Below are positions 11,438 to 63,002 of a stretch of 64,000 nucleotides of DNA, piece after piece. Position numbers and translations under genes: made by a program. The notes beneath the pieces are model-generated. The model was not told the origin of the DNA. It did no database searches and was given only the letters and a program-made list of their open reading frames with translations. Every line of letters starts with the position of its first letter. Within the stretch, counting starts at the first letter, position 1. Source of the DNA: Leptotrichia hofstadii (GTDB lineage Bacteria > Fusobacteriota > Fusobacteriia > Fusobacteriales > Leptotrichiaceae); NCBI RefSeq assembly GCF_007990525.1, contig NZ_AP019823.1, forward strand, positions 124,001-188,000, written 5' to 3'.

Positions 11438-11528
11438 CATTATTGATTTCATATAACCTGAAAATTAATTTAAATTGTCAAGAAAATCTTATAGATACAA
11501 ATAAAATGCTAGTACTTGGATAAAATGA

Positions 11529-12092: not shown

Positions 12093-12093
12093 A

Positions 12094-12852: not shown

Positions 12853-12863
12853 CAAGAAAAAAT

Positions 12864-12894
12864 CCTCTAAATAAAAACATTTGGAGGTTTTTTT
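12864..12894 (+). terminator. Intrinsic terminator
   Basis: A 9-bp stem (12864-12872 with 12879-12887, arm CCTCTAAAT, one wobble) is followed by seven T. It closes the first transporter remnant. Confidence 0.8.
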
Positions 12895-12934
12895 ATTGTT
12901 TTTAAGAAAATATATGTATATACAAAAATAAATC

Positions 12935-12963
12935 TTTACAAATAAAATTTTTTGTAGTATAAT
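12935..12963 (+). promoter_or_regulatory. Sigma70 promoter of the amino-acid uptake operon
   Basis: TTTACA (12935-12940) and TATAAT (12958-12963) are spaced 17 bp apart. This predicts a start near 12970 and a ~65-base leader before the first permease. Confidence 0.75.
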
Positions 12964-13034
12964 ATTTTCATATACAAATATAAGAGATAAAAAAGTAAAA
13001 TATACAACAACATTCTTAGAAAGGAAAGATAAAA

Positions 13035-13694
13035 ATGGACTTTAATTTTATAATAGAAAATATTCCTAAATATTTAGAAGCAATGAAATTGACCGTGTTT
13101 ATAGGAATTTTTGGAATTGTATTTTCAATATTGATTGGGATAGTTTGTGCATTGGTGCTTTATTACAGAGTTCCAGTTGCTAGGCAGATTGTGGGAATTT
13201 ATATTGAGCTTTCGAGAAATACTCCGCTTGTAATACAGCTGTTCTTTCTGTATTTTGGGCTTCCCAAAATTGGAATTACATTTAATTCGCATATCTGTGC
13301 TGTGATTGGATTATCTTTCCTTGGTGGAAGTTACATGTGTGAGGCATTTCGGAGCGGATTGGAGTCAGTTACGAAAGGGCAGCGGGAATCTGGATTAAGT
13401 ATTGGACTTACAGAATCACAGCTTATAACTAACGTAATATTGCCACAGGCATTTACGGTTTCGTTTCCAGCGATAGCGGCAAATATAATATTTCTTTTGA
13501 AAGAAACTTCAGTAATAGGGATTTTGGCTTTAATGGAACTGATGTATCTGACACGGGATTTGATAGGGCTTTATTATAAAACGAATGAAAGTCTGTTTAT
13601 GCTTGTTGCAGCATATTTGATTATTATTTTGCCAGTTTCGTTTATTTTAACAGTAATTGAAAGGAGAATAAGATATGCAACTGTCGGGAATTGA
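13035..13694 (+). CDS. Amino-acid ABC transporter permease
   Basis: A 219-residue polar amino-acid (HisM/GlnP-type) permease. It has an N-terminal helix, the RNTPL segment typical of the family (ELSRNTPLVIQLFFLYFG), the EAA-like loop SGLSIGLTESQLITNVILPQA and several membrane helices. It would form half of the inner-membrane channel, paired with the next gene, whose start it overlaps by 20 bases. AGAAAGGA precedes ATG. It is the first gene of an operon running to the binding protein at 18351. Confidence 0.88.
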   Translation: MDFNFIIENIPKYLEAMKLTVFIGIFGIVFSILIGIVCALVLYYRVPVARQIVGIYIELSRNTPLVIQLFFLYFGLPKIGITFNSHICAVIGLSFLGGSYMCEAFRSGLESVTKGQRESGLSIGLTESQLITNVILPQAFTVSFPAIAANIIFLLKETSVIGILALMELMYLTRDLIGLYYKTNESLFMLVAAYLIIILPVSFILTVIERRIRYATVGN

Positions 13695-14352
13695 TGTTAT
13701 TTTTAAAGGAGTCAATTTGCAAAGGCTTATGGGTGGGCTTATTGTAACGGGACAAATTGCTTTTGTTTCCATAGTATTTTCAATATTGTTCGGATTAATT
13801 CTAGGAATAGTTATGACTTCAAAAAATAAGATTATTTATGGAATATTGAAGCTTTATCTGGAAAGTATGAGAATCATTCCCTTGCTTGTGTGGCTATTCA
13901 TAATTTATTTTGGAGTTGCAAAAGGCTTTGATTTGCATATTGATTCAGAAACTACGACAATAATAGTGTTTGTGATATGGGGAACGGCTGAAATGATGGA
14001 TATTGTGAGGGGAGCTATTATTTCTCTTCCAAAAATTCAAGGAGAAAGTGCAAAGGCTTTGGGGCTTGATACAATTCAGGTTTATAGATATGTGCTGCTT
14101 CCGCAGGCAGTAAGAAGAATTGCACCTGCGGCGGTAAACCTTATAACAAGAATGATTAAGACAACTTCACTTGCGATTTTTATAGAAGTTGCAGAAGTTC
14201 TAAAAATAGGACGGCAAATTATAGAGTTTTCAAGCAGGAAAAATCCGATGGCACCATTTTGGGTGTATCTGTTCATATTTTTTCTATACTTCATAATTTG
14301 TTACCCAATTACGTTATTATCAAAAAAAATGGAGAAAAAATGGGCTGTTTAA
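13675..14352 (+). CDS. Amino-acid ABC transporter permease
   Basis: The second permease of the pair, 225 residues, with the EAA loop AKALGLDTIQVYRYVLLPQA and the usual membrane helices. In this family two permeases commonly heterodimerise. The 20-base overlap with the first permease implies translational coupling. AAGGAG lies upstream inside that gene. The transported amino acid cannot be decided from sequence. Confidence 0.88.
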   Translation: MQLSGIDVIFKGVNLQRLMGGLIVTGQIAFVSIVFSILFGLILGIVMTSKNKIIYGILKLYLESMRIIPLLVWLFIIYFGVAKGFDLHIDSETTTIIVFVIWGTAEMMDIVRGAIISLPKIQGESAKALGLDTIQVYRYVLLPQAVRRIAPAAVNLITRMIKTTSLAIFIEVAEVLKIGRQIIEFSSRKNPMAPFWVYLFIFFLYFIICYPITLLSKKMEKKWAV

Positions 14353-45701: not shown

Positions 45702-46304
45702 ATGGGAAAAAGAGAATACAGTGCTGGAATTGTAAGTAAAGGATTCTGGTTTTTAGAATTTAAAAAATTTTTAGAGTTTTTGAAAGATGGGAAAAATGAG
45801 AATGAGATAAGAAAAATGCAGGAAGAAGAAAATATTTTTTCTGTACCTTCTAAAGATTATGGTAAAAGAATTTTTAGTGAAATTAATAAAAGAATAAAAG
45901 TACTTTCTGGGGAAATAAAGGAACTATTTTTTGAAAGTGATACAGGAACCCAAAAAATAATAAATCTTTTATCTATAATGGTAACTGATAAATTATTTTT
46001 TGAATATGTATACAATTCGTACAGAAATGAGCTGTTGCTTGGGACAAAAGAATATAATCCAGGTGTTGTTATGAAGTTTCTGAAGGAAAAAGCAGAGCAA
46101 AATGAAGAGGTAGCAAAGTTTAGTGAAAAAACACTGAAAAGAATGCAAGGAACATATGGAAATTATTTAAAAGAAGCAGGTTTACTTGAGGAAAAAAACA
46201 AAGAGATATTATATGGTAAAGTTTATTTAGATTATGAACTGGAAAAATTATTAAGGGAAAATAATATGGAAATATATATAAAAGCATTAAAAGGAGAAGT
46301 GTAA
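45702..46304 (+). CDS. brxA: BREX protein BrxA (DUF1819)
   Basis: A 200-residue helical protein that fits the BrxA/DUF1819 family: it opens with YSAGIVSKGFWFLEFKKFLEF and has the usual length. BrxA is a NusB-like DNA-binding protein and the first gene of type 1 BREX operons. GGGG lies before ATG. Its last base overlaps the first base of brxB. Confidence 0.87.
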   Translation: MGKREYSAGIVSKGFWFLEFKKFLEFLKDGKNENEIRKMQEEENIFSVPSKDYGKRIFSEINKRIKVLSGEIKELFFESDTGTQKIINLLSIMVTDKLFFEYVYNSYRNELLLGTKEYNPGVVMKFLKEKAEQNEEVAKFSEKTLKRMQGTYGNYLKEAGLLEEKNKEILYGKVYLDYELEKLLRENNMEIYIKALKGEV

Positions 46305-46882
46305 TGACAAAAACAGAAAAAAATTTAGGAAAAATAGAAAGTGAAATAGGAAAGACTTCTTTTTTAAATGGCAAAGGACTTGGGAATGAAGTTTCATATT
46401 ATGTTTTTGATTATGATCCTAAAGATGAAATTCTTGTAAGGGAATATATTGATAAGTTGGTAAAAAAGGATAAGGAATTTGGTGATGGATATAAACTGAA
46501 AGTTTATGATGTGTATGACTTGATGATTGACTTGCTTGAATCTGAAGGATATCTGGAAGATTGCTTTGAGATGGAAAAAAATGATGGAATGAATTATCTT
46601 GTAGAGTCTGTAAATGATTTACTTAGAATGAGCGATAACAATGACTACTTTACAGAATATATAGAAGAAAATACACCTGAAAAAGCTATTGTTTTTTTAA
46701 CGGGAGTTGGAAAAATATTTCCGTTTGTGCGTTCACATAAAATATTGAATAATCTGCATCAAAGCTTTAATAAAGCTCCAGTAGTAATGTTTTATCCAGG
46801 AAAATATGATGGACAGTCATTGGAATTATTTGGAGAATTTAAAGATGATAATTATTACAGGGCTTTTCCGCTCATAAAGTAA
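46304..46882 (+). CDS. brxB: BREX protein BrxB (DUF1788)
   Basis: A 192-residue DUF1788 protein. It contains VFLTGVGKIFPFVRSHKILNNL and the C-terminal PVVMFYPGKYDGQSLELFG typical of BrxB. Its biochemical role is not established. It couples translationally to brxA and lies 129 bases before brxC. Confidence 0.9.
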   Translation: MTKTEKNLGKIESEIGKTSFLNGKGLGNEVSYYVFDYDPKDEILVREYIDKLVKKDKEFGDGYKLKVYDVYDLMIDLLESEGYLEDCFEMEKNDGMNYLVESVNDLLRMSDNNDYFTEYIEENTPEKAIVFLTGVGKIFPFVRSHKILNNLHQSFNKAPVVMFYPGKYDGQSLELFGEFKDDNYYRAFPLIK

Positions 46883-47011: not shown

Positions 47012-50000
47012 ATGAAAATAAGAGAGATGTTTAAGAAACCTATTGATAGAAATATAGAAGGGGTAATAAAAACAGGACAGGAAGGGAAAGAAAATAAAAA
47101 GCAGGAACTGGAAGAATATGTAGTAACAAATGAATTACAGAAACATTTTAGGGATTTTTTTTCAGCATATAGTAAAGGGATTGATGGAAGTACGGAAGAT
47201 ATAGGTGTCTGGATAAGTGGTTTCTTTGGAAGTGGGAAATCACATTTGCTGAAAATACTATCTTATTTATTTTCAAATGAAGAGATTGATGGGAAAAGAG
47301 CGATAGATTATTTTGTAGAAGATAATAAAATAAAGGATGAAATGGTTATTGCAGATATGAAAAGAGCTTGTCAAATCTCGACTGATTCTATTTTATTTAA
47401 TATTGATTCTAAAAGTGAAAGTACTGGAAATAAAGGAAAAGATGATATTCTGAAAGTATTTTTGAAAGCATTTAATGAAATGCAGGGATTCTCACCAAAT
47501 CCATATGTGGCAGATTTAGAGAGGGAATTGGTTTCAGCTGGAAAATATGAGGAGTTTAAAGAAAAATTTGAAGAAATTTCCAGAAAAAACTGGGAAGAAA
47601 GAAGAAATAATTTTAACTTTGAAACTTCCAAAGTTAAAAAAGCCTTGGCAGAAATAGAATTTATGACAGAAGAGGAAGCAAATAACTGGATTGAATCTTC
47701 TAAAAAGGACTATTCCATTTCGATAGAAGATTTTGCAAAAATGATTGATAAATATATTAAGAAAAAAGGAAATAATCATCATGTAATATTTTTTGTAGAT
47801 GAAGTTGGACAGTATATAGGAGAAAATACTGATTTAATGCTGAATCTGCAAACTGTAACAGAAGATTTAGGAGTATATTGTAAAGGAAAAGCATGGGTAG
47901 TTGTAACTTCTCAACAAGCGATAGATTCTATTACAAAAGTAAAAGGAAATGATTTTTCTAAAATACAGGGTAGATTTAAAACTAGAATCAGCCTAACTTC
48001 TACAGATGTATCAGAAGTTATAAAAAAGAGAATTTTAGAAAAAAATGAATACGCAGAAAAAGAACTGTCTTTAGTTTATGCGGAAAAGGAATCGGTAATA
48101 AAAAATCTTGTTATATTTGATGATGGAATTGAAAAGAAGATTTATTCAGATGTAAAAGATTTTCAGGAAGTGTATCCTTTTATTCCGTATCAGTTTCAGA
48201 TACTTTCGTATGTTTTAACTTCTATTCGTGAACATAGTTCAAGTGGAAAACATTTATCTGAAGGAGAGCGTTCGATGCTTGCAATGTTTAAAGAAGGAGC
48301 AGAAAAATATAAAGAAAATGAAACAGGAATACTTGTTTCCTTTGATAAATTTTATGATGGACTCCAAAGTTTTCTGGATCACTCACATTCAGTGATTATA
48401 ACAGGAGCTATGAAAAATAGCTATATTAATCCTGAAAATGAAGAAAATTGCTTTAATGTGAATGTACTTAAAGTTCTTTTTATGATTAAGTATGTTAAGG
48501 AAATAAAGGGAACACTGGAAAATATTACTACATTAATGGTTGAAGATATAAATGAAGATAGAATAGTGTTAAAGGAAAAGATTAAGGAAGCACTAGATGT
48601 ACTTATAAAACAGACACTTGTACAAAAATCTGGAGATGTATATATATTCCTGACAAATGAAGAGCAGGAAGTAGAGAAAATGATTGATAAAATTGATGTG
48701 GATATGAATGAAATATTGAGAAAAATTTCCGAAAAAATATTTGATAAATTCTATTCAGAGAAAAAATATCAGTCACCTAAATTTAAAGATTATACTTTCT
48801 CCTTTAATCAGAAAGTTGATGACAATGCAAGAGGTAAAGATACATATGATATAGGTATAAATATAGTTACTCCAAATTCTGATTACAGTGGAAATGAAAG
48901 TTCCCTATTAATGAAAAGTACACAGGAAAATTCAGTATTTATTGATTTAGGAGAAAATAGTTTTTATATAAATGAAATAGAGATGGATATAAAAATAGAG
49001 AAATTCTTAAAATCAGGAGAGGCTGATGATTTACCACAAGGAAGTATTATAAAGGAAAAAAAGAGTACAGAGCGTAAGGAACATATAGAACGTTCAGAAC
49101 GGATGCTGGAAGAGGCTCTTAGAGATGCAAAATATTATGTGGGAGGAAATAACCTTTCTCTTAATGCAAAGGACTATAAAACTAAGATAACTGAAGCATT
49201 AGGAAAATTAGTGAACAAAGTATATAACAAACTGGACTATATTACAAAATCTATGGGAGAAAGTGATATAAGGGAAATTTTTGAAGATAGGGAAGATACC
49301 TTGATTACTGCTGAAAGAAAAAAAGATAACGTAAATGCAATACAGGAAGTTGTAAATCATATAAAACTTAAAAAGGAAAAAGGACTGAAGATAAACATAA
49401 AGGAAGTAAAGGATTATTTTTCAAAAGCTCCATTTGGATGGAATGATAAAGATATTGAATGGATAGTTGTAAGAGCATTTAAAGATGGAGAAATAGAGCT
49501 TAAAAGAAATGGAAACAGTTTAAACCTATTAAATGAAACTTCTGAAAATATTATAGAAAGTATTGTAAAAAAAGACAGTGGAGAAAGAGTTTATCTTGAA
49601 ATAAAGGAAAAGATAGATAACAAAAGTATAAGAGCAATGAAAAATGTTGCAGATGAGCTGTTTGGAAAAAATATTGATTCAGAAGATACAGATAAAATGG
49701 TGAAGGATTTTAAAGAGCTGACAAGGGAAAAACTTGTTGAAATAGAAGAGTTGGAAAGAAACTATAAGAATAAAAATTATCCAGGCAAGGATGTATTGGA
49801 AAATAGAGAAAGACTTTTAAAAAGAATACTCGCATTGAAAGATACAAGAGAAATATTTGATGAAGTTTTAGGACATGAAGATGACTACTGTGATTATGTT
49901 GAAGCTATGGAGCCTATAGATAAGTTTTTTGCTGGAGAACAGAAAAATATATGGGATGAGTCTGTTAAACTATATGAAAAATATGCTGATTCTAAAAATT

Positions 50001-50593
50001 ATTTTTCAGATGTAGAAATTGAGCAAACTGTAAGAGATATAAATAAAATATTGAATGATAAAAAACCATATAATGAAATTAAGGATTTGAATGAGCTAAA
50101 TAAAAAATTTACTGAAAATTATAATCAGATTTTATCTGAAAGAAGAAATCCCATTTTAGATAAAATAAAAGAAATAAAAGAAATAACGTTGGAAAGACTG
50201 TATACGGAAAATGAAGAATTAAAAGAAAAGTTTACTAAAAAAGTTGAAGAAAGCTTTTCTGAAATTTTGAGAAATGCTGAAAAGTCAGAAAATATAAGGG
50301 AAATAGAAACTTTTGACAAAGAAGCTTCAAATTTGAAAAGTAAACTTCTTGATGAATTTGAAAAACAGGAAGAGGAAATAAGAGCAAACTTAAAAATAGA
50401 TGATGCAGTAGAAAAGAGTCCAGCAATTCCAATAAGAATAAAGAAGCCAAAAATAATAGGAATCGCTAAAATAAATAAAGATAGAGTATGGAAAATACAA
50501 AGCAAAGAAGATATAGAAAGTTATCTTGAAAAATTGAGAAAAAAACTGGAAAAAGAACTGGAAGACAGTGAAATTGTGGAAGTGGAATTTTAA
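47012..50593 (+). CDS. brxC: BREX protein BrxC, large AAA+ ATPase
   Basis: A 1193-residue ATPase with Walker A GFFGSGKSH (residues 70-78) and Walker B HVIFFVDEVGQ (about 254-264), followed by a long charged helical region. In type 1 BREX it is essential for both methylation and phage restriction. The N terminus MKIREMFKKPIDRNIEGVIK matches the family. The ribosome site directly upstream is weak (AGAAGAG). A stronger site 35 bases earlier serves a six-codon leader frame at 46977. Confidence 0.93.
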   Translation: MKIREMFKKPIDRNIEGVIKTGQEGKENKKQELEEYVVTNELQKHFRDFFSAYSKGIDGSTEDIGVWISGFFGSGKSHLLKILSYLFSNEEIDGKRAIDYFVEDNKIKDEMVIADMKRACQISTDSILFNIDSKSESTGNKGKDDILKVFLKAFNEMQGFSPNPYVADLERELVSAGKYEEFKEKFEEISRKNWEERRNNFNFETSKVKKALAEIEFMTEEEANNWIESSKKDYSISIEDFAKMIDKYIKKKGNNHHVIFFVDEVGQYIGENTDLMLNLQTVTEDLGVYCKGKAWVVVTSQQAIDSITKVKGNDFSKIQGRFKTRISLTSTDVSEVIKKRILEKNEYAEKELSLVYAEKESVIKNLVIFDDGIEKKIYSDVKDFQEVYPFIPYQFQILSYVLTSIREHSSSGKHLSEGERSMLAMFKEGAEKYKENETGILVSFDKFYDGLQSFLDHSHSVIITGAMKNSYINPENEENCFNVNVLKVLFMIKYVKEIKGTLENITTLMVEDINEDRIVLKEKIKEALDVLIKQTLVQKSGDVYIFLTNEEQEVEKMIDKIDVDMNEILRKISEKIFDKFYSEKKYQSPKFKDYTFSFNQKVDDNARGKDTYDIGINIVTPNSDYSGNESSLLMKSTQENSVFIDLGENSFYINEIEMDIKIEKFLKSGEADDLPQGSIIKEKKSTERKEHIERSERMLEEALRDAKYYVGGNNLSLNAKDYKTKITEALGKLVNKVYNKLDYITKSMGESDIREIFEDREDTLITAERKKDNVNAIQEVVNHIKLKKEKGLKINIKEVKDYFSKAPFGWNDKDIEWIVVRAFKDGEIELKRNGNSLNLLNETSENIIESIVKKDSGERVYLEIKEKIDNKSIRAMKNVADELFGKNIDSEDTDKMVKDFKELTREKLVEIEELERNYKNKNYPGKDVLENRERLLKRILALKDTREIFDEVLGHEDDYCDYVEAMEPIDKFFAGEQKNIWDESVKLYEKYADSKNYFSDVEIEQTVRDINKILNDKKPYNEIKDLNELNKKFTENYNQILSERRNPILDKIKEIKEITLERLYTENEELKEKFTKKVEESFSEILRNAEKSENIREIETFDKEASNLKSKLLDEFEKQEEEIRANLKIDDAVEKSPAIPIRIKKPKIIGIAKINKDRVWKIQSKEDIESYLEKLRKKLEKELEDSEIVEVEF

Positions 50594-50645
50594 GATAAGA
50601 AGAAAAAAGAAAATAACTCATTATTAAATGAAGAAAGGTAAAATT

Positions 50646-51275
50646 ATGACTTGGGATATAGAGGAAGTAGAAAGAAATTTAAAAAAAGCTTTTGATGAAA
50701 ATTCAGAACAAAAACTATTAGATTTATTAAAAAAGAATACATTTTTATTTTATGAATTAGTTGAAAGAAAATATACAATGCAACCAATATTTCATGAAGT
50801 AGAATTTGGTAATAAATATAGATGTGATTTTTTATGGCTTTCTGATAGAAGTGACTATCCACAATGGGTATTAGTTGAGATAGAAAAACCTCAAGGAACC
50901 TTATTTAATCAAAATAAAAGTGTTTCTAATTATTTAAAAAAAGGAATAGAACAAGTAGATAACTGGAGAAGATATTTTGCTGAGTATCCTAGTGAAAAAG
51001 AGAGAATATTTAAAGCAAAAAATTTAAAATTTAGATATATATTAATAATAGGAAATAAAGAAGAATGGGAAAAAACCGAATTTTCAAAAAATTGGCGTGC
51101 ATATAATGACAAAAAGATAGAAATAAGAACGATGGATGTATTTAAAAGAGCAATTGAAAATTTCAAAAAAAATCCAAAAGAATTTTTTTGTTTTGAAGAA
51201 AATCCTATTACAAAAAATTCAAAAGAATTAGAGGAGTATATAGAAAAGAATAGTTTTACTAGATTTTTAGGATAA
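50646..51275 (+). CDS. Shedu-type nuclease (DUF4263)
   Basis: A 209-residue protein matching the DUF4263/Shedu domain in order: a leader helix ending in KNTFLF, EVEFGNKYRCDFLW (catalytic-type Asp), WVLVEIEKPQGTLF (catalytic-type Glu-x-Glu/Lys), IEQVDNWRRYF and FRYILIIGNKEEW. Shedu proteins are anti-phage nucleases with a PD-(D/E)XK-like core. ATG 50646 has AGAAAGG 7 bases upstream; the ATG at 50628 overlaps that site. It lies 52 bases after brxC and 46 before pglX, in the same direction, so it is an insertion within the BREX operon. Confidence 0.8.
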   Translation: MTWDIEEVERNLKKAFDENSEQKLLDLLKKNTFLFYELVERKYTMQPIFHEVEFGNKYRCDFLWLSDRSDYPQWVLVEIEKPQGTLFNQNKSVSNYLKKGIEQVDNWRRYFAEYPSEKERIFKAKNLKFRYILIIGNKEEWEKTEFSKNWRAYNDKKIEIRTMDVFKRAIENFKKNPKEFFCFEENPITKNSKELEEYIEKNSFTRFLG

Positions 51276-51321
51276 CTAAAATTATAGAAATAAAAAAATA
51301 GAAATAGGTGAATTTAGACTA

Positions 51322-54300
51322 ATGGACAAAGTAGCATTGAGAAATTTTGCAGTAAATGCAAAAGAAAAAATGGAAGATGATATAAAAAGAAAATTGGAAT
51401 TGATGGGAATTACAGAAAAAGGGATAGGAGAAGAAACTGTAAAAGAAGATGATTATCTGAAGATTAATGGACAGGAATTTAATGAAAAGGAAGTTAAACA
51501 GAGAGAAAAAGTAATTGAGGTATTAAAAGCAAGAGAGAAAAATGAAGATTTTAAGAAATGTTTTGATGAATTTGTTGAGGAAATAGCGTATACCTGGTTT
51601 AATAGGATTATTGCTATTAGATTTATGGAAGTAAATGACTATCTTCCAGATGGAATAAGAATTTTATCTTCTGACAGGGAAAATGACAGGGAACCTCAAA
51701 TAATAAGGGAAGTATTTGATACAGACCTGGAATTTTCAAATGATGAAAAAAATAATGTTTATAAGTTAAAAGAAGAGAACAAAATAGAAGAGCTCTTCAA
51801 ATTTTTATTTATAAAAAAATGTAATAAATTTAATGAAATACTGCCTGAATTATTTGAAGAAGCTGAAGATTATTCAGAGTTGCTTTTACCAATTTCAATA
51901 AATGATGAAGAAGGAATATTGAGAAAGTTAGTGGATGAAGTGCCTGAAGAAAGCTTTAATGTGGAAAAAGAGGGACAGATTGAAGTGATTGGGTGGCTTT
52001 ATCAGTATTATAATGAGAAGAAGAAGAAGGAAGTAGACCAGAAAACAAAAAAAGGAAAAAAAGTGGAACAGGATGATATACCTGCGAAAACACAGTTATT
52101 TACACCAAAATGGATAGTAAAATATATGGTGGAAAATAGTTTAGGGAATTTATGGCTGGAAGGACATCCAAATGAAGATTTAGAGGAAAAATGGAAATTT
52201 CTTGTAAAGGGAGAAAAACAGGAAGAAGAAATTGAAAAGAAACTGGAAAAACTGAATGAAAATTATAAGGAAATGAAACTAGAAGAAATTAAAATAATAG
52301 ATCCGTGTATGGGAAGTGGACATATACTTGTCTACGCTTTTGATGTATTAATGGATATTTATTCAAATTTGGGTTATTCCAACAGGGATGCTGTTCAGTC
52401 AATACTGGAAAATAATATTTATGGTCTTGATATAGATAAAAGAGCTTATCAGTTGGCATATTTTGCTTTAATGATGAAGGCAAGAGAATATTATAAAAGA
52501 ATATTTTCTAAAAAATTGGAACTAAATATCTGTTATACAAGAGAAAGTAATGATATTAATAAAAAAATAATAGATTTTATTTCAAATGGAAATAATAAAA
52601 TAAAAGAAGAACTTGATTTAATTTATAATTCATTTTTAGATGCAAGAGAATATGGGAGCTTAATAGAAGCACCAAAAATAGATTATGATGAAATAAAAAA
52701 TAGATTATTAGAAATAGAAAATACAGATTTCTATAATCTGTTTGACGAATTAAAAAAAGAAGAAATAAAAAATAAATTTTATTATGTAATAAAAACATCA
52801 GAAATATTATCAAAAAAATATGAAGTAGTTGCAACCAATCCACCATATATGGGGAGTTCAATAATGGATTCCAAGTTATCAAAATATACAAAAAAGAATT
52901 ATCCAAACAGTAAGATGGATATGTTTGCTGTATTTATTGAGAGATGTAATAATCTTACAAAGAAAAATTGTTATACTTCTATGATAACTATGCAGTCATG
53001 GATGTTTTTATCATCATTTGAAACTTTAAGAAAGAATATTCTAGAAAAAACTACAATTAAAAGTTTATTGCAATTAGGATATGGAGTTATTGGAATTGCT
53101 TTTGGAACTTCAGCTTTCAGTTTGAAAAAATCTTTTCCTGATGAAAAAAAAGGTTATTATTTTAGAATGTTCGATAAAATAGCACAAAATATACAAACAG
53201 ATGACTGTGCAACTTTGTTTAGAATTTCAAAAAACACTACTAATTTTAAATATAAATTTGATGAATATTCAAGTGAAAATACAATATTTGAAGATATAAA
53301 ATCTAATAAAAAAGGGAATTTAATAAAGTTTCAAGTTAATCAAAAAAACTTTGAAAAAATACCAAGAATGCCAATAGTATATTGGGCTAGTGAAAATTTG
53401 TTGGAAGATTTTGAAAAAGGAATCAAAATTTCTGAACTAATAGAGCCAAAACAAGGATTAGCGACAGCAGATAATAATAGATTTTTAAGACAGTGGTATG
53501 AAGTGGAAGAAGAGAAAATAAACTACAATATAAAATCAATAGAGGGAATAGAAAGTAATGAATATAAATGGTATCCGTATAATAAAGGTGGAGGAAGACG
53601 ACAATGGTACGGAAACTACGATTATGTAGTAAATTGGGAAAATAATGGTAATGAAATAAGAAATTTTAAGGATAGTAATGGTAAATTAAGATCGGTAGTT
53701 AGAAATCCTAATTATTATTTTAAAGAAGCGATAACTTGGCCATTGATAACAAGTGGGGGTTTCAGCATCAGATACAGAGAATCAGGTAGTATACATGATG
53801 TTTCAGGAATGTCAGCATTTTCTGAAAATGAATTAAGATTAAAATACATTTTAGGTATAATGGGAACTAAAATATCTAATTTTATCTTTAATATGTTAAA
53901 TCCGACTGTGAATTTACAAGTAGGAGATTTTAATAATTTCCCAGTTATAGAAAATAAACAAATAAACCCAAAAGTAATTTCAATAGTTGATGACTGTATC
54001 AAAATCTCAAAATATGACTGGAATACATTTGAGACAGCATGGGATTTTAAAGTAAGTCCATTGGTTAATTTTGAAAGATATGTGGAAGGATTTGATAATG
54101 TAAAAATAGGGGAAAATGGGAATGTTGAAAATAAGAAAATTGATAAAACACAAATAATATTAATAGAAGAAGTATATAGTCAATATAAAGAATTTACAAA
54201 TAATCAGTTTTTAAAATTGAAAGAAAATGAAGAGGAATTAAATAGAATTTTTATTGATATTTATGGACTGCAGGATGAACTGACTTCAGATATAAGTGAT

Positions 54301-55113
54301 AAAGATATAACAATAGCTAAAATATTTGATACAGATGATGAAATAAATGATGAAATTAAAGGGAATAACTATGTTCTGACAAAAGCAGATGTTGTAAAAC
54401 AATTTATTTCCTATGCTGTTGGATGTATGTTCGGGCGTTATTCGCTTGATGAGGAAGGTCTTGTATTTGCAGGAGGAGAATTTGATAAAAATAAATATAG
54501 CAAATTTATTCCTGATGAAGATAACTGTATTCCAATTACTGATAGTGAATATTTTAGTGATGATATTGTTACAAGATTTGTAGAATTTGTAAAAACAGTA
54601 TATGGAGAAGAAACTCTTGAAGAAAATCTTAAATTTATTGCACAAGCCTTATCTAATAAAAATGATGCTCCAAAAGATATTATAAGAGAATATTTCTTGA
54701 AAAGTTTTTATGACGATCATTTAAAAAGATACGAAGAAAGACCAATTTACTGGCTTTATGATGCAGGAGAGAAAAATGGATTTAAGGCATTGATTTATAT
54801 GCACCGTTATAATGAACAGACTACAGCAAAGGTTAGAATTGGATATTTACACGAGCTACAGAAACATTATGAAAGAAGGGCAAATTTTCTGAAGGATGAA
54901 ATTGAAAGTAATAACAACAGAAAAAAAGCCGAGCAGGAGCTGAAAAAGATAAAATCACAGCTTGATGAATGTAAACAATTTGATGAAAAGATGAATCACT
55001 TGTCTTCAGAATATATTTCGATTGATTTGGATGACGGAGTGAAAGTCAATTATGAGAAAGTTCAGACTGGACGTGATGGGAAAAAGTATGAGATATTGGG
55101 GAAGGTGAAGTAG
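51322..55113 (+). CDS. pglX: BREX-1 adenine-specific DNA methyltransferase PglX
   Basis: A 1263-residue N6-adenine methyltransferase with the SAM motif IIDPCMGSGHILVYAFD (about residue 328) and the catalytic ATNPPYMGSS (about 503). N- and C-terminal regions are typical of PglX and recognise the host site. It marks self DNA, and BREX blocks replication of unmarked phage. The frame is intact. No long homopolymer or short-repeat tract suggestive of phase variation was seen. Confidence 0.94.
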   Translation: MDKVALRNFAVNAKEKMEDDIKRKLELMGITEKGIGEETVKEDDYLKINGQEFNEKEVKQREKVIEVLKAREKNEDFKKCFDEFVEEIAYTWFNRIIAIRFMEVNDYLPDGIRILSSDRENDREPQIIREVFDTDLEFSNDEKNNVYKLKEENKIEELFKFLFIKKCNKFNEILPELFEEAEDYSELLLPISINDEEGILRKLVDEVPEESFNVEKEGQIEVIGWLYQYYNEKKKKEVDQKTKKGKKVEQDDIPAKTQLFTPKWIVKYMVENSLGNLWLEGHPNEDLEEKWKFLVKGEKQEEEIEKKLEKLNENYKEMKLEEIKIIDPCMGSGHILVYAFDVLMDIYSNLGYSNRDAVQSILENNIYGLDIDKRAYQLAYFALMMKAREYYKRIFSKKLELNICYTRESNDINKKIIDFISNGNNKIKEELDLIYNSFLDAREYGSLIEAPKIDYDEIKNRLLEIENTDFYNLFDELKKEEIKNKFYYVIKTSEILSKKYEVVATNPPYMGSSIMDSKLSKYTKKNYPNSKMDMFAVFIERCNNLTKKNCYTSMITMQSWMFLSSFETLRKNILEKTTIKSLLQLGYGVIGIAFGTSAFSLKKSFPDEKKGYYFRMFDKIAQNIQTDDCATLFRISKNTTNFKYKFDEYSSENTIFEDIKSNKKGNLIKFQVNQKNFEKIPRMPIVYWASENLLEDFEKGIKISELIEPKQGLATADNNRFLRQWYEVEEEKINYNIKSIEGIESNEYKWYPYNKGGGRRQWYGNYDYVVNWENNGNEIRNFKDSNGKLRSVVRNPNYYFKEAITWPLITSGGFSIRYRESGSIHDVSGMSAFSENELRLKYILGIMGTKISNFIFNMLNPTVNLQVGDFNNFPVIENKQINPKVISIVDDCIKISKYDWNTFETAWDFKVSPLVNFERYVEGFDNVKIGENGNVENKKIDKTQIILIEEVYSQYKEFTNNQFLKLKENEEELNRIFIDIYGLQDELTSDISDKDITIAKIFDTDDEINDEIKGNNYVLTKADVVKQFISYAVGCMFGRYSLDEEGLVFAGGEFDKNKYSKFIPDEDNCIPITDSEYFSDDIVTRFVEFVKTVYGEETLEENLKFIAQALSNKNDAPKDIIREYFLKSFYDDHLKRYEERPIYWLYDAGEKNGFKALIYMHRYNEQTTAKVRIGYLHELQKHYERRANFLKDEIESNNNRKKAEQELKKIKSQLDECKQFDEKMNHLSSEYISIDLDDGVKVNYEKVQTGRDGKKYEILGKVK

Positions 55114-55116
55114 GTT

Positions 55117-55872
55117 ATGGAAAATAAAATTTTCTCTATTCCTTTTTTAGAATATGCTAGTAAAATATTAGGAGAAACTAATAAAGGATTTTCTACAGCA
55201 GAAATAATACGTTATTGTAATAGTTATTCAGTACAATTTAATGTTGAAATCCCAATAACAAGTTTAGAAGATAAATATCCGAATAAAAGAACGATTTTAT
55301 TAGAAAACCTAAAAAAATTTTCCTCTACAACACAGTTTTTTATTTTATCAGAATTATGTGAAATAAGTGATATTGAAAAAAATCCTGAAGTAATGGAGTT
55401 AAAAAAAAGATTGTACGAAAAATATGGGGAATTATCCCCTAATAAATCTAGTAATGAATTACTGATTATAAAAACAAAGAATAATTTGAAAATTTATCAA
55501 AAATCTTATGAAAAATATGAAGAAGGAATAAAAAATTTTGATAAAAAAGGTAATAATAGACATATTTTAGATGATATGAGATTCTCTTTGGAGTCATTGT
55601 TAAAAGAAATTTTAAACAATAAAAAAAGCTTAGAAAATCAAATTTCAATTTTAGGAGAGAGTTTAGAAGAAAAAAATATTTCTGTTGAAATTAGAAATTT
55701 ATTTACGCAAGTTATAAGATGTTATTGCAAATATCAAAATGAAAATGTAAAACATAATGACAAAATAAGTGAATTTGAAGTAAAATTTATAATAGAACAA
55801 ACTTCTGTATTTATAAATTTCATTATAGATACTTTAGGAAATAAAAAATCTTATATAAATGGAGGAAATTAA
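55117..55872 (+). CDS. Uncharacterised helical protein coupled to AbiH, HEPN/Abi_C-like C terminus
   Basis: A 251-residue, mostly helical protein. It starts 3 bases after pglX and its stop overlaps the AbiH start by one base. The C-terminal half (from NRHILDDMRFSLESLLKEIL through YQNENVKHND to EQTSVFINFIIDTL) resembles abortive-infection C-terminal or HEPN-like helical domains. No standard RX4-6H motif is present; the nearest is R followed 12 residues later by H. It is likely a partner of AbiH; the function is inferred from context only. Confidence 0.55.
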   Translation: MENKIFSIPFLEYASKILGETNKGFSTAEIIRYCNSYSVQFNVEIPITSLEDKYPNKRTILLENLKKFSSTTQFFILSELCEISDIEKNPEVMELKKRLYEKYGELSPNKSSNELLIIKTKNNLKIYQKSYEKYEEGIKNFDKKGNNRHILDDMRFSLESLLKEILNNKKSLENQISILGESLEEKNISVEIRNLFTQVIRCYCKYQNENVKHNDKISEFEVKFIIEQTSVFINFIIDTLGNKKSYINGGN

Positions 55873-56987
55873 TGACACAGGAACTTTATATTCTAGGAAA
55901 TGGCTTTGATTTATGGCAAGGATTACTTACGAGATATGAAGATTATTTTGAAATAAAAAAAGAAAAAATAGAAAAATTTTGGACAAAATTTAATGAAATT
56001 TTTTTTAAAATAACCAGTTACAATGATTTACACGATAGACCTTATTTTCAAGAAGAGAATTTAAAAGAATTAATAGAAAAACTTCATAATGAACTAAATG
56101 AAAATTTATTTTTTTATTATCTTTTATTCTGTAAAAAAGAACAAGAATGGTATGAGGTTGAAACTAATATAGTTAGTTATGTCAATAATATCAGGGAGAT
56201 ATTTGAATATAAAGCAGATATAAAAGATATTGTAAAATATGCTAAAAATCATGAAAAATATAAATATTTCATTATAGTTCAAATGTTAATAGAAAGTGTA
56301 TTAGATGTAAAAATAGCAATAAAAGTAGCATTGGAACATTTAAATTTATTTGAAAAAGATTTTGGAAATTATATTAAGGATGTTCAAAATAAATTGGCTC
56401 ATAGTTTAGATAATATATTATATAATGACAAACCTAAAAAAATAATAAATTTTAATTATACAACTATTATAAAAAATGAGATTGATAAATTTAAAAATAT
56501 ACAAAAATATACAATAGCTGAAAATATAAGAAGTATAGAGGAAGTAATTAATATTCATGGAGATTATGAAAATCCAATTTTTGGAATAGATAACCAAAAT
56601 GTTGATGAAAGTATGAATATTTTTACTAAAACATATAGAATTTTAAGTAATGATACAATTGAAAGTTTTACGTTACCATCTAATAAGCTTTTAGAAACAA
56701 TTTACTTTTTTGGACATTCGTTATCAGAAGCAGATTACTCTTATTTTCAGAGTATGTTTGATTATTATAGTATTTATGACTCAAAAATAAGATTGATTTT
56801 TCTGTATTCAGATTATGATGGGAAAGAAAAAAGTAGACAAGAAAATAGAGTTGTAAAATTAATAAATGACTATGGAAAAACTCTTGAAAATAAAGATAAA
56901 GGAAAAAATTTATTACATAAACTTTTATTAGAAAATAGAATTAAAATCTATGAAATTGAAAAAGCAAAAGAATTATTAGAGAAATAA
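55872..56987 (+). CDS. AbiH-family abortive infection protein
   Basis: A 371-residue protein with the AbiH N-terminal signature ILGNGFDLWQGLLTRYEDY, the IINFNYTT motif (about 190-198), VINIHGDYENPIFGID and a late FFGHSLSEADYSYF. AbiH proteins limit phage by abortive infection through an unknown mechanism. ATG shares a base with the preceding stop. It is the last gene before an intergenic gap and the HicAB promoter. Confidence 0.85.
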   Translation: MTQELYILGNGFDLWQGLLTRYEDYFEIKKEKIEKFWTKFNEIFFKITSYNDLHDRPYFQEENLKELIEKLHNELNENLFFYYLLFCKKEQEWYEVETNIVSYVNNIREIFEYKADIKDIVKYAKNHEKYKYFIIVQMLIESVLDVKIAIKVALEHLNLFEKDFGNYIKDVQNKLAHSLDNILYNDKPKKIINFNYTTIIKNEIDKFKNIQKYTIAENIRSIEEVINIHGDYENPIFGIDNQNVDESMNIFTKTYRILSNDTIESFTLPSNKLLETIYFFGHSLSEADYSYFQSMFDYYSIYDSKIRLIFLYSDYDGKEKSRQENRVVKLINDYGKTLENKDKGKNLLHKLLLENRIKIYEIEKAKELLEK

Positions 56988-57036
56988 TATAATATTTGAG
57001 CTAAAATATACAATAGGACAATTAAAATAAATCATA

Positions 57037-57065
57037 TTGAACAAATATTGAATATGTGTTATAAT
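57037..57065 (+). promoter_or_regulatory. Promoter of hicAB
   Basis: TTGAAC (57037-57042) and TATAAT (57060-57065) are spaced 17 bp apart, about 40 bases before hicA. It is an internal promoter inside the BREX island. Confidence 0.7.
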
Positions 57066-57104
57066 GTTTTTGCCGTAAACTTTTAACATTCCTAGGGAGG
57101 CAAG

Positions 57105-57290
57105 ATGACGGTAAAAGAAGTAGAAGCTATTATTCTTAAAGATGGATGGGTTCGAGTACCAAGTAACTCAAGTCATAGACAATATAAACATCCTGTAAAA
57201 ACAGGAAGAGTGACAATTGCGTGGCATAAAGCTAAAGACGAGGTACCTCCTAAAACATTAAAAAGAATAATGGCTCAGGCAGGACTTTAA
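57105..57290 (+). CDS. hicA: HicA toxin
   Basis: A 61-residue double-stranded-RNA-binding-fold mRNA interferase with the catalytic histidine in SSHRQYKHP and the C-terminal ending PPKTLKRIMAQAGL. It cleaves mRNA when free of HicB. GGGAGG lies 5 bases before ATG. It is followed after 46 bases by hicB in the usual order. Confidence 0.92.
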   Translation: MTVKEVEAIILKDGWVRVPSNSSHRQYKHPVKTGRVTIAWHKAKDEVPPKTLKRIMAQAGL

Positions 57291-57336
57291 TAAAGTTCTG
57301 CTCTACTTACTTCAAGAATATCAGGAGGCGTTTTTA

Positions 57337-57735
57337 ATGTTTTATCCACTTATAATTACTTACACATCAGATGAATATTATGAAGTTAATATTCCCGATT
57401 TTAAGTTGGAACTGGGGGCATATGGGGAAACAGAAGAAGAAGCAATTGATATGGCAAAAAATGTTATTGTCAGTGAACTGGAATTACTGGAAAAGGAATG
57501 TAAAAAATATCCTGAACCAAGTAGTGCAAAGGAATTGTCAAAAAAAATAGCAGATAATCAATATTTAGTGAGACTTGATTTTAATCTGGAATATGAAAGA
57601 TCATTGATAAAACAGGTTTTTAAAAGTAGAACAGTAACATTGCCTACATGGCTTGATATGCTGGCAAAGAATAAAAATCTGAATTTTTCTCAAATATTGC
57701 AGAAAGGATTGAAACAGGAACTAAATATAAAATAA
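57337..57735 (+). CDS. hicB: HicB antitoxin
   Basis: A 132-residue protein. The N-terminal half is the degenerate RNase H fold of HicB (YYEVNIPDFKLELGAYGETEEEAIDMA). The C terminus is a ribbon-helix-helix-type or HTH DNA-binding segment (SRTVTLPTWLDMLAKNKNLNFSQILQKGL). It neutralises HicA and probably represses the hicAB promoter. AGGAGG precedes ATG. Confidence 0.92.
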   Translation: MFYPLIITYTSDEYYEVNIPDFKLELGAYGETEEEAIDMAKNVIVSELELLEKECKKYPEPSSAKELSKKIADNQYLVRLDFNLEYERSLIKQVFKSRTVTLPTWLDMLAKNKNLNFSQILQKGLKQELNIK

Positions 57736-58280: not shown

Positions 58281-58327
58281 AAATGGGTGGGTTAAATTGA
58301 GGTATAAAAAATCATGGAGTGAGAAAA

Positions 58328-60856
58328 TTGAATTTAGAACAAATTACAGATACACTTAACAGTGAATTTAAGAAAGAAGGAAGAAGACTTGTTTTCTGGT
58401 ATGATGAAAAACAGGAATTTCTGTCAGAAATTGAAGAATTACAGCTGGAAAATGCAAAATTACTTGTATTGCATCAGGATGAGCTTTTTAAAACAAAAAT
58501 ACTTCTTGAAAGAGAGGAAAAGGAAACAAATTATTTAATATATGCTCCATTTAAACGAAGTGAAAACAGGGAAAATCACCTTGCTGATACAATAATGTAT
58601 TCAAAGGTGTTTTTAACAGACTGGATTTCCATAATGGTTCAGAATTTGAAAATAGACGATGAACTCAAGGAAGTAATGGAAGAGCATAGAAAGTTTTTTG
58701 AGGCAAAAGATAGAAGGGAAAAGTTTGAAAAGCTGGTAAATGACAGTAAACCTTCAAAAAAAGAAGATATGGAAATCATTTTAATGAGGGCAATTACAGG
58801 TTCAAAAGCTGAAATATTTGATGGTTTTGAAGATGTTACAAGAATTTTAATTACAGATGTCAACAGAAAAGAAAGTAGATATCTTGTAGAGTTTAATAAA
58901 TATAATCTTGAAGAGAAGTTTTGGGAATTATGTAGATTAAAATTTGGATATGTTGATGATGATCCGAGTTTAACTAAGTTACTTATTGGAATATTTTTAA
59001 CTTATGCTTCTGAAAAAATAACAAAAGAAATTCCTGTTAGATTTAAGGAACTAAGTATAAGAAGTACCGTTATGGTATTTTTAAATAGATTGCGACAGAT
59101 TTCTGAATATAGAGAAACTTTTAAAAATCTTGTTTCAGAAGTTTATTCTATTATAGATGGAAATAAATATTTTAAAAATATTTTACCTGAATATATTTTG
59201 GAACTTGATATATTTGATTTTCCTGATGAAAAAATAACGAAATGGATAGTTGAAAGAATTGTTGATGAGAATTTTTCAGCAAAGTTGCAAGATAAATCTA
59301 TAGCAGAGATAATAGAATTACGAAGAGAGAAAAATATTGATAATTTAAAATTAAAGATAGAGTATAAAATATTGGAATATGCTTACAAAGGAATAAAAAA
59401 TACAAATTTTGAAACTTGTAGTGATTTATTAGAAATAATAGAAAAATATGCTCAAAAAGATTATATGATTGATACATATTATAGGAAATTTTGTTATTAC
59501 TATGATCAATTAACAGAAAATAGTGAAAAGTATAGTAGGTTGTTAGAATTATTAGAAACCAAATATACTGATAAATTTTTAAATCCTGCAAATATAAAAT
59601 TTAATGACCTACTTAATTATAGAGAGTTTCCTAAGAAAATAAATTTACAAAAGGATTTTTACAAAAATTATGTTGAAATTAATAAAAATAGAATTGTAGT
59701 AATAATTTCTGATGCTTTGAGGTATGAGACTGGGAGAGAATTATTTTATAAGATGAGTAGAGATGAAACTATAGATGCTGAAATAGAATATCAGTTAGGA
59801 ATTATACCTTCTATTACAAAATTAGGTATGGCAGCATTGCTTCCACATGACAAAATAGAAATAGAAGTCGAAAATGGTGATTTTTCAGTACTTATTGATG
59901 GAAAAGCTTGCAATGACAGAGTAAAAAGAGAAAAAATTTTAAAAAGTTATGATGAAAATTCAGTAGCTTTAGATTTTGATGAAGTATTTAGATGTTCAAA
60001 AAATGAATTAAGAGAGGTATTTAGAAATAAGAAAAAACTTTATATTTATCATAATCAAATTGATTCGATAGGAGATAAGGCAAATACTGAAGATGAAGTG
60101 TTTGAGGCGTGTCAAAAAGCGATAGAAGAAATTATGAATTTAATAAAAAAACTTAGAGTGGAATCTATTAATAATATAATAGTAACAGCAGATCACGGAT
60201 TTATTTACAAAAGAAGAAAAATAGATGAAAGTGATAAAATAGAAAACTTTTCTAGTAAAAATGATGTTGTGAATAGGAGATACATAGTAACGGAAAATGA
60301 ATATGGCGAAATTGGTACAAATGAAATAAACATGTCAGATGTTTTAAATAATAAAAATGAAAATTTAAAAGTAATTTCACCGAATACTTCTAGTGTATTT
60401 AAGGTTAGTGGTGGTGGACAAAATTATTATCATGGTGGAATTTCGTTACAAGAATTAATTGTTCCAGTTATAAAAGTAAAAACTGCAAAAGGATCAGTAG
60501 ACACGGAATTGGTAAAAGTTGGTTTAATATCAGAAATTAACAAAATAACTAATTTGAAAATCTCGCTTGATTTTCTTCAAAAAAGTGCTGTAACAGATAT
60601 TATAAAACCTACAGAATTTGAAATATATTTTATTGATAGTAATGAGAGTATAATTTCAAATATAGAAAATTATAAAGCAAATAGTGAAGAAACTGAAACT
60701 GTAAAAAGAATAAAAAAACTAAGATTTACTTTAATAAATAAAAAATATAAAAAAGATGAAGATTATTATTTAGTTGTAAAAAATATAGAAACTAAAATTG
60801 AAGAAAGGAAAAAAATAATAATAGATATATTATTTTCAGATGATTTTGGATTTTGA
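58328..60856 (+). CDS. pglZ: BREX-1 phosphatase-like protein PglZ
   Basis: An ~842-residue PglZ type A protein. The alkaline-phosphatase-superfamily core starts at VVIISDALRYETGREL (about residue 457), has ADHGFIYKRR (about 620) for further metal ligands and YHGGISLQELIVPV near the end. It is required for BREX methylation and defence. TTG 58328 is preferred (GGAG 8 bases upstream). GTG 58319 overlaps that GGAG and would only add three residues. Confidence 0.92.
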   Translation: MNLEQITDTLNSEFKKEGRRLVFWYDEKQEFLSEIEELQLENAKLLVLHQDELFKTKILLEREEKETNYLIYAPFKRSENRENHLADTIMYSKVFLTDWISIMVQNLKIDDELKEVMEEHRKFFEAKDRREKFEKLVNDSKPSKKEDMEIILMRAITGSKAEIFDGFEDVTRILITDVNRKESRYLVEFNKYNLEEKFWELCRLKFGYVDDDPSLTKLLIGIFLTYASEKITKEIPVRFKELSIRSTVMVFLNRLRQISEYRETFKNLVSEVYSIIDGNKYFKNILPEYILELDIFDFPDEKITKWIVERIVDENFSAKLQDKSIAEIIELRREKNIDNLKLKIEYKILEYAYKGIKNTNFETCSDLLEIIEKYAQKDYMIDTYYRKFCYYYDQLTENSEKYSRLLELLETKYTDKFLNPANIKFNDLLNYREFPKKINLQKDFYKNYVEINKNRIVVIISDALRYETGRELFYKMSRDETIDAEIEYQLGIIPSITKLGMAALLPHDKIEIEVENGDFSVLIDGKACNDRVKREKILKSYDENSVALDFDEVFRCSKNELREVFRNKKKLYIYHNQIDSIGDKANTEDEVFEACQKAIEEIMNLIKKLRVESINNIIVTADHGFIYKRRKIDESDKIENFSSKNDVVNRRYIVTENEYGEIGTNEINMSDVLNNKNENLKVISPNTSSVFKVSGGGQNYYHGGISLQELIVPVIKVKTAKGSVDTELVKVGLISEINKITNLKISLDFLQKSAVTDIIKPTEFEIYFIDSNESIISNIENYKANSEETETVKRIKKLRFTLINKKYKKDEDYYLVVKNIETKIEERKKIIIDILFSDDFGF

Positions 60857-60902
60857 TAAATAATTTTTTTGTTTGAAACAAGAGATATTAAAGGAGGAAA
60901 AA

Positions 60903-63002
60903 GTGAATAAGGATTATTGTCAAACTTTTGAGGATAATGATTGTTTAAAAGAGGCTAATAATGACAAAGATAGAGAAACATTAAGTGAAAAGTTAAATAA
61001 ATATTTTTCTGGAAAAATCGTTAGAAAAGATTTGACAAAAAAAATAAGGGAAGGGGCAAATGTTCCTATATATGTGCTTGAATATTTATTGGGAATGTAT
61101 TGTTCTTCAGAAAATGAAGAAGATATAGAAGAAGGAATGGGAACAGTAAAAAGAATTTTGGCACAAAATTATGTAAGACCTGATGAAGCCGAAAGAATAA
61201 AATCAAAATTAAGAGAAAATGGATCTTATACAATAATTGACAAGGTTACTGTAAAGTTAAATTTTAAGGAGAATAGACATGAAGCTGAATTTTCCAATTT
61301 ATCGTTAAAAGGTGTTCCAGTATCAGATGTTTATCCTTCTAAATACGAGAGATTGTTAGGAGGAGGTATTTGGTGTATTATTCAGTTGGAATATTATTAT
61401 GATGAAGACGATAAAAAAGGAAATCCTGTAATTATAAAAAAATTAACACCTGTACAAATGCCAGAAATTGATTTTGAAGAGTTTAAAGATTTAAGAGAAA
61501 AATTTACAGATGAAGAGTGGATAGATATTGTTTTAAGAAGTACAGGAATGGAATCTAGTAAATTTGATGAAAGAGTTAAATGGCTTCATTTGTCAAGATT
61601 AATACCATTGTTAGAAAATAATTATAATTTTTGTGAGCTAGGGCCTCGTGGAACTGGGAAATCACATATTTATAAAGAAATAAGCCCGAACAGTATACTT
61701 GTATCAGGAGGTCAAACAAGTGTAGCAAATCTTTTTTATAATATGGGAAGAGGAACAATGGGACTCGTAGGACTTTGGGACTGTGTAGCCTTTGATGAGG
61801 TGGCAGGAATGAAGTTTAAGGATCAAGATGGAGTCCAAATTATGAAAGATTATATGGCATCAGGCTCGTTTGCACGTGGGAAAGAACAAAAAAATGCAAG
61901 TGCTGGAATGGTTTTTATAGGAAATATTAATCAGAGTGTAGATGTTGTTTTAAAAACTTCTAATTTATTTGAACCATTTCCTCATGTAATGGGAAGAGAT
62001 ACGGCATTCTTAGATAGAATGCACTGTTATTTACCTGGTTGGGAAATTCCTAAATATAGACCAGAGTTTTTTACTGATGACTATGGTTTTATAACAGATT
62101 ATTATGCGGAAATTATGAGAGAATTACGTAAAATTTCTTATGCAGATGCATATGATAAGTATTTTAAATTAGGAAATCAATTAAATCAAAGAGATGTGAT
62201 TGCAGTCAAAAAAACTGTTTCTGGAATGGTAAAAATAATTTATCCACATGGAAAATTTACAAAAGAAAAAATTGAAAAGATATTAAGATTCTCACTAGAA
62301 ATGAGAAGAAGAGTTAAAGAGCAACTAAAAAAAATAGGTGGGATGGAATTTTATGACGTAAATTTTTCGTATATCGATAATGAAAAATTTAATGAAGAAT
62401 ATGTTCCTGTTCCAGAGCAAAGTAGTGGAAGTTTGATTCCAGAAGGTATTGGAAAACCAGGTCATTTGTATACGGTTTCAAGTATAAAAAGTGGAATGAT
62501 TGGATTGTTTAAAATTGAAACTCAGATGACAAAAGGAACAGGAAAATTTGAAAAAGCAGGATTAGGAAATAATCGTGAAGCAAAGGAATCAGCTGAAATG
62601 GCATTTAAATACTTAAGAGCTAATGGGAAATTAATAAGTGGAGAAATTAGCACAAAAAATAATGATTATGTTGTAAATTATCAAGACTTAAAAGGTATTG
62701 GAATGACTTCAAATGTAACTTTGTCTACATACATCGCTATTTGTTCAGCTGCATTAAATAAACCTATTATTTCAAGTGCGGTAATTTTAGGAGATTTGAG
62801 TATCGGTGGAACAATACTAAAAGTAAGTGAACTTGCAAATGTGTTACAAGTGTGTTTAGATTCAGGGGCAAAAAAAGTATTGTTGCCAATGACTTCGGCT
62901 TCTGATTTGGCGACGGTGCCACCAGATTTAATAGGTGCATTTAACTTAATTTTTTATTCTACAGCTGAAGATGCTGTATTTAAAGCTTTAGGGGTGGAAT
63001 AG
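60903..63002 (+). CDS. brxL: BREX protein BrxL, Lon-like AAA+ protein
   Basis: A 699-residue protein with an N-terminal BrxL domain, AAA+ Walker A GPRGTGKSH (about residue 246), Walker B WDCVAFDEVAGM and a C-terminal Lon-protease-like domain with Ser in MTSASDLATVP (about 662). BrxL defines type 1 BREX and binds DNA as a ring-forming ATPase. GTG 60903 is used because AAGGAGG lies 7 bases upstream; TTG 60873 precedes this site. It is the last gene of the island. Confidence 0.93.
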   Translation: MNKDYCQTFEDNDCLKEANNDKDRETLSEKLNKYFSGKIVRKDLTKKIREGANVPIYVLEYLLGMYCSSENEEDIEEGMGTVKRILAQNYVRPDEAERIKSKLRENGSYTIIDKVTVKLNFKENRHEAEFSNLSLKGVPVSDVYPSKYERLLGGGIWCIIQLEYYYDEDDKKGNPVIIKKLTPVQMPEIDFEEFKDLREKFTDEEWIDIVLRSTGMESSKFDERVKWLHLSRLIPLLENNYNFCELGPRGTGKSHIYKEISPNSILVSGGQTSVANLFYNMGRGTMGLVGLWDCVAFDEVAGMKFKDQDGVQIMKDYMASGSFARGKEQKNASAGMVFIGNINQSVDVVLKTSNLFEPFPHVMGRDTAFLDRMHCYLPGWEIPKYRPEFFTDDYGFITDYYAEIMRELRKISYADAYDKYFKLGNQLNQRDVIAVKKTVSGMVKIIYPHGKFTKEKIEKILRFSLEMRRRVKEQLKKIGGMEFYDVNFSYIDNEKFNEEYVPVPEQSSGSLIPEGIGKPGHLYTVSSIKSGMIGLFKIETQMTKGTGKFEKAGLGNNREAKESAEMAFKYLRANGKLISGEISTKNNDYVVNYQDLKGIGMTSNVTLSTYIAICSAALNKPIISSAVILGDLSIGGTILKVSELANVLQVCLDSGAKKVLLPMTSASDLATVPPDLIGAFNLIFYSTAEDAVFKALGVE

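Follow-up and report, generated by a model that had tools for sequence, protein, structure and literature searches.

A short Shedu-type gene in the brxC-pglX interval of a type I BREX operon of Leptotrichia hofstadii

The nuclease of type I Shedu is controlled by an N-terminal sensor/clamp domain and, to our knowledge, every known Shedu control mechanism relies on an N-terminal domain. The PADLOC collection also holds PDLC00395, an SduA family of short DUF4263 proteins for which we know of no function test. BamHI is a PD-(D/E)XK restriction enzyme that is sequence-specific and is accompanied by a methylase of its own. It carries Glu in place of the Lys of the ExK motif (PMC4081073), as does the protein described below, although no sequence relation between the two has been shown.

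Extra nuclease genes within BREX have been described before. On pEFER the GmrSD-type (DUF262/DUF1524) nuclease BrxU sits between brxC and pglX of a type I BREX operon and is sufficient alone for defence without BREX (PMC8565348). Moreover, the main text of the survey of Rakesh and Krishnan 2026 (PMC12839542) places auxiliary nucleases, standalone PD-(D/E)XK enzymes among them, inside BREX loci or beside them and names Shedu as earlier linked to BREX, and therefore the idea of a Shedu-type nuclease in BREX has a precedent. That main text gives, however, no account of the short ExE branch described here or of its place. Nor did we find a description of this branch in the papers examined. Here we describe an sduA-like gene (hereafter sduA) in a 64,000-nt stretch of the Leptotrichia hofstadii genome (the window), where it occupies the same slot as BrxU. 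The two differ in that they belong to unrelated families with unrelated targets, and BrxU has been tested experimentally whilst sduA is known from sequence alone.

The sduA gene and the surrounding operon

The sduA reading frame is intact and encodes 209 aa from an ATG with AGAAAGG a short way 5′ of it. Starting from another in-frame ATG, at 50628, would lengthen the protein by 6 aa, but the homologues share the start given in Table 1. PF14082 (SduA_C/DUF4263) scored 71.6 bits on residues 19-165 (curated cut-off 27 bits), spanning profile positions 2-157 of 159, and the PADLOC SduA model PDLC00395 matched residues 1-204 (model 1-203 of 212). No second domain was found in domain searches, and there was no NCBIfam model for the protein. 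By its nuclease domain the product belongs to Shedu, and by its full-length match to the PDLC00395 sequence family, with which it shares size and motifs and from which we found no difference. An AlphaFold model built from a two-sequence input reached a pLDDT of only 37, a quality too low to draw on.

The operon reads brxA-brxB-brxC-(sduA)-pglX-(PDC-S32, AbiH, HicB-like)-pglZ-brxL. All six genes of a type I BREX operon (brxA, brxB, brxC, pglX, pglZ and brxL) are thus found in order around sduA, with brxL assigned by position (Table 1). A preliminary description of the locus had placed a DUF4263 protein with no other large domain between brxC and pglX with gaps of ~50 bases. The significant HMM matches bear out the former and the measured spacing the latter, there being 52 nt from the brxC stop to sduA and 46 nt from sduA to the pglX start, within a complete type I operon. 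The absence of any terminator-like site between brxC, sduA and pglX is compatible with a single transcript without showing one, and the three genes are probably co-transcribed. The GC content of sduA, PDC-S32 and abiH is 21-24% (GC3 11-12%), against 25-31% (GC3 15-21%) for most BREX core genes, which is the expectation for later arrivals.

Table 1. Features of the BREX operon and its extra genes, in window coordinates.
Feature	Position	Strand	Evidence or remark
brxA	45702..46304	+	PF08849 E=5.7e-46
brxB	46304..46882	+	PF08747 E=4.3e-43
brxC	47012..50593	+	PF25796, PF25792, PF25791
Inserted cassette (brxC stop to pglX start)	50594..51321	+	Missing in congeners; blastn homology broken at both ends
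sduA-like gene	50646..51275	+	PF14082 E=1.1e-19; PDLC00395 E=5e-100; motif alignments; SduA_C/DUF4263 domain only; ExE branch (D61, E78-x-E80, Q103xxxW107)
pglX, BREX-1 adenine methyltransferase	51322..55113	+	NF033452 1354.6 bits, cut-off 500
PDC-S32 defence-candidate gene, second cargo slot (pglX-pglZ)	55117..55872	+	PDLC04998 E=3.7e-59
AbiH family gene, second cargo slot (pglX-pglZ)	55872..56987	+	PF14253 E=8.8e-22
pglZ	58319..60856	+	PF08665 E=2.6e-53; PDLC02564
brxL	60873..63002	+	Named by position after pglZ and place in operon, no HMM; 56-98% identical genes follow pglZ in other loci

The short ExE branch and its active site

The sduA product lacks the N-terminal sensor/clamp domain seen in type I Shedu, because only 18 residues lie before the SduA_C match. 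Likewise, 60 residues lie before D61, compared with 261 in the EcSduA-like protein L052. Since the clamp is missing, DNA-end sensing of the EcSduA type should not be assumed for this protein.

To place the protein within Shedu, short-branch relatives were gathered from plasmids, one genome of the Fusobacteriota set and Cloacimonadota, and Cloacimonadota also supplied the canonical members, which have long N-termini. When solved structures were searched by sequence with the sduA product or its branch, chance matches alone were obtained, and therefore the tie to solved Shedu was made via the canonical members. One of these matched EcSduA (8ps4) at 1.2e-88; the canonical set matched 8ps4 at 2e-57 and SduA 8ti8 at 1e-13, and a four-member canonical profile also recovered 8ti8/8ti9. 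Profile-profile comparison linked the short branch to canonical Shedu with 96% probability (E=4e-9), pairing D61 with Asp, E78 with Glu, E80 with the Lys of ExK, Q103 with Gln and W107 with the Tyr of QxxxY. The sduA product therefore has the SduA_C domain in common with EcSduA (8ps4) and SduA 8ti8/8ti9, and the D, E and Q of the active-site region align, but it differs from them in having no N-terminal domain, ExE rather than ExK and QxxxW rather than QxxxY. The motif differences run through both sets: ExE and QxxxW occur in 10/10 short-branch sequences, whereas the canonical sequences have ExK in 7/7 and QxxxY in 6/7. A maximum-likelihood tree splits the short ExE branch from canonical Shedu with support of 99/97, a split that wider sampling could soften, as the two sets came from different searches and mostly different hosts. 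On these comparisons we regard the sduA product as a noncanonical Shedu belonging to a short ExE side branch without a sensor domain.

The motifs YRCDF, VEIEKP and EQVDNW, which the preliminary description had given as the DUF4263 core, are all present and lie at active-site positions. That description had named loss of the catalytic triad as a ground against it but had overlooked that one residue differs: D61 and E78 of the canonical D...ExK residues are kept, and the Lys is replaced by E80 within VEIEKP, yet this replacement is branch-wide. In VcSduA the canonical Lys is needed, as K557A abolishes defence (PMC12137116). Across a diverse ten-member alignment of the short branch, in which identity drops to ~20%, the only invariant columns are D61, E78, E80, Q103 and W107. 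That the best-kept columns are the active-site positions makes a decayed site unlikely, and a Lys to Glu change common to the whole branch, together with an invariant E80, argues for a variant site rather than a dead one. By this pattern of conservation an active, BamHI-like variant site in the ExE branch appears more likely than decay.

Distribution of sduA and the brxC-pglX slot

Three genomes of the same genus carry a closely related BREX operon (PglZ 94, 75 and 75% identical), and in 3/3 of these operons (L022-L024) brxC and pglX are adjacent, without sduA. When window positions 50401-51500 were compared with L022-L024 by blastn, homology stopped with brxC (~50592) and restarted at the pglX start (~51321-51322). 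The slot measures 42 nt in L023 and ~300 nt in L022 and L024, where it contains an inverted-repeat element. We considered whether the ~300-nt gaps are remnants of sduA and rejected this, as no credible match was found. The element itself is ~230 bp long, lies between brxC and pglX (reverse complement, 8438-8737 in L022 and 6932-7230 in L024), has 17-nt inverted repeats (in L024 GAACTTAGGCTAGCAGA ... TCTGCTAACCTAAGTTC) and is spanned by a short reading frame of membrane type. Probing with 18 nt from the end of the element recovered the slot copy in both genomes and, in one of the two, a further weaker match outside the slot; no match to this probe was found in other genomes.

An SduA_C gene is present in 1/13 genomes of the genus, this one, and in 2/100 relatives overall. 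The other one (L030:1381-2127; G027 contig C2) encodes an ExE-branch protein of 248 aa and lies on a contig of 54 kb, probably a plasmid, that also carries ParA and resolvase genes.

We then examined the slot in ten BREX-1 operons, a small sample hand-picked for diversity among 302 BrxC-matching plasmids. The genes brxC and pglX adjoin or overlap in eight of the ten, and the slot is filled in two, by a DUF262 gene (BrxU) in Escherichia fergusonii and by a Schlafen-AlbA_2 gene in Azotobacter. DUF262 genes were found between pglX and pglZ too, whilst a Shedu gene was found in 0/10. Absent from these ten and from the three congeneric operons, sduA is not a core component of type I BREX; it has instead the position of slot cargo, an extra gene exactly between brxC and pglX that is missing in relatives. 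Judged by gene order, the brxC-pglX junction is a replaceable slot, as is pglX-pglZ. The latter is hypervariable in the genus, holding the PDC-S32, AbiH and HicB-like genes in the window (55117-57735), a TIR/SEFIR-NTPase gene in L023 and a CD-NTase with a 4TM effector, a CBASS-type pair, in L024 (L023/L024, reverse complement, about 9500-14200).

Relatives of sduA were also found in other settings. A relative on an Acinetobacter pittii plasmid, 54% identical to the sduA product, adjoins toxin-antitoxin genes with a LlaJI-type restriction system ~6-10 kb off, and there is no PglZ anywhere on that plasmid. Two Cloacimonadota relatives (~50% identical) each close an operon that also encodes a DUF1156 methylase and a DUF499 ATPase, which PADLOC names HmaC, and each begins one base after the stop of the preceding gene. 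No other short ExE-branch plasmid relative was seen beside BREX. The occurrence of sduA-type genes in different defence loci points to exchange. Among these findings it is the Hma setting alone that allows for a functional tie to BREX-like ATPases. Directly 5′ of the small SduA gene in both Hma operons (L008:8321-9997 and L029:8036-9802) is a gene for a 558/588-aa protein without a family name. It weakly resembles SduA_C over a region that contains an EIK motif (E=0.0014) and is perhaps the second nuclease of a pair with the small SduA. Single-protein scans of genome contigs and viral contigs gave no relatives of the sduA product, and an alignment scan of the genome contigs gave one. None was found in the viral contigs by alignment scans, protein scans or a DNA pattern scan, nor in the phage collection.

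Possible roles of the sduA product

The reading we favour, with a probability of about 0.6, is that sduA encodes an autonomous anti-phage nuclease from a side branch of Shedu and that BREX carries the gene as exchangeable cargo. The gene would have been gained horizontally and would have come to rest in the brxC-pglX slot of this type I BREX operon. Its product, a compact PD-(D/E)XK-type protein with an ExE rather than an ExK site and no N-terminal sensor domain, would cut or nick incoming phage DNA as a self-contained nuclease and so add a second layer of defence beside BREX, in the manner of BrxU. Nuclease activity, phage DNA as the target, a role in defence and independence of BREX are what we infer from sequence; sduA is most likely an extra, self-sufficient defence and no working part of BREX. 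It speaks against an autonomous nuclease that the Lys essential in VcSduA is Glu here, that the N-terminal control domain is missing, and that the Cloacimonadota relatives lie in a BREX-like Hma/DUF499 operon.

The last two of these points would favour the proposal of the preliminary description, that sduA is a dedicated effector or helper of BREX which may rely on it for sensing or for protection by methylation. Having lost its own sensor, the nuclease would be licensed to cleave by a BREX protein (BrxC or other), or PglX methylation would shield host DNA. The short distance to the operon neighbours would suit such a partner, as would the Cloacimonadota relatives that end a DUF499/HmaC operon and abut the preceding gene, DUF499 systems being treated as BREX-related in the main text of the NAR 2026 survey (PMC12839542). 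However, sduA is missing from the three congeneric BREX operons, with clean junctions, the slot accepts unrelated cargo, and BREX is missing from the replicon of the closest plasmid relative, nor are the other short ExE-branch plasmid relatives seen next to BREX; we consider a dedicated partner unlikely. Reliance on BREX for sensing or methylation also sits poorly with the 54%-identical Acinetobacter relative, found without PglZ, and with the BrxU parallel, which acts alone. Dependence on BREX through methylation was rejected as the leading idea because BREX-free relatives exist. It is highly doubtful, too, that the short ExE branch dropped its own sensor because infection is detected by the ATPase of the surrounding system, BrxC in BREX and the DUF499 protein HmaC in Hma, with the nuclease licensed by that ATPase in trans, which would make it one plug-in nuclease for two related machines.

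Two further readings concern what the protein would do to DNA. Without the catalytic Lys, the branch might serve as a regulator or decoy that binds DNA or a partner but does not cut. Glu replaces the Lys of ExK in all ten branch members examined, and defence systems often contain degenerate REase folds according to the main text of PMC12839542, but D61, E78 and E80 are invariant though the rest diverges to ~20% identity, and BamHI cleaves with Glu at that position (PMC4081073), so that an inactive fold seems quite unlikely. Alternatively, the protein might cut host DNA as a back-up suicide effector once BREX is defeated, a role which the main text of the NAR 2026 survey proposes for standalone endoDNases in BREX loci (PMC12839542). 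Shedu is also reported to be toxic on expression in foreign hosts (PMC12904381). Yet there is no toxin-type partner or antidote gene next to sduA, and VcSduA protects at all multiplicities while the host stays alive (PMC12137116), which leaves abortive infection very unlikely.

If the ExE branch is active, as the autonomous reading supposes, the Shedu family would have a second active-site type and would work without an N-terminal sensor domain, which would bear on how Shedu nucleases distinguish phage from host DNA. Moreover, the brxC-pglX junction is documented here as an exchangeable slot and is thus a place to seek unknown defence genes.
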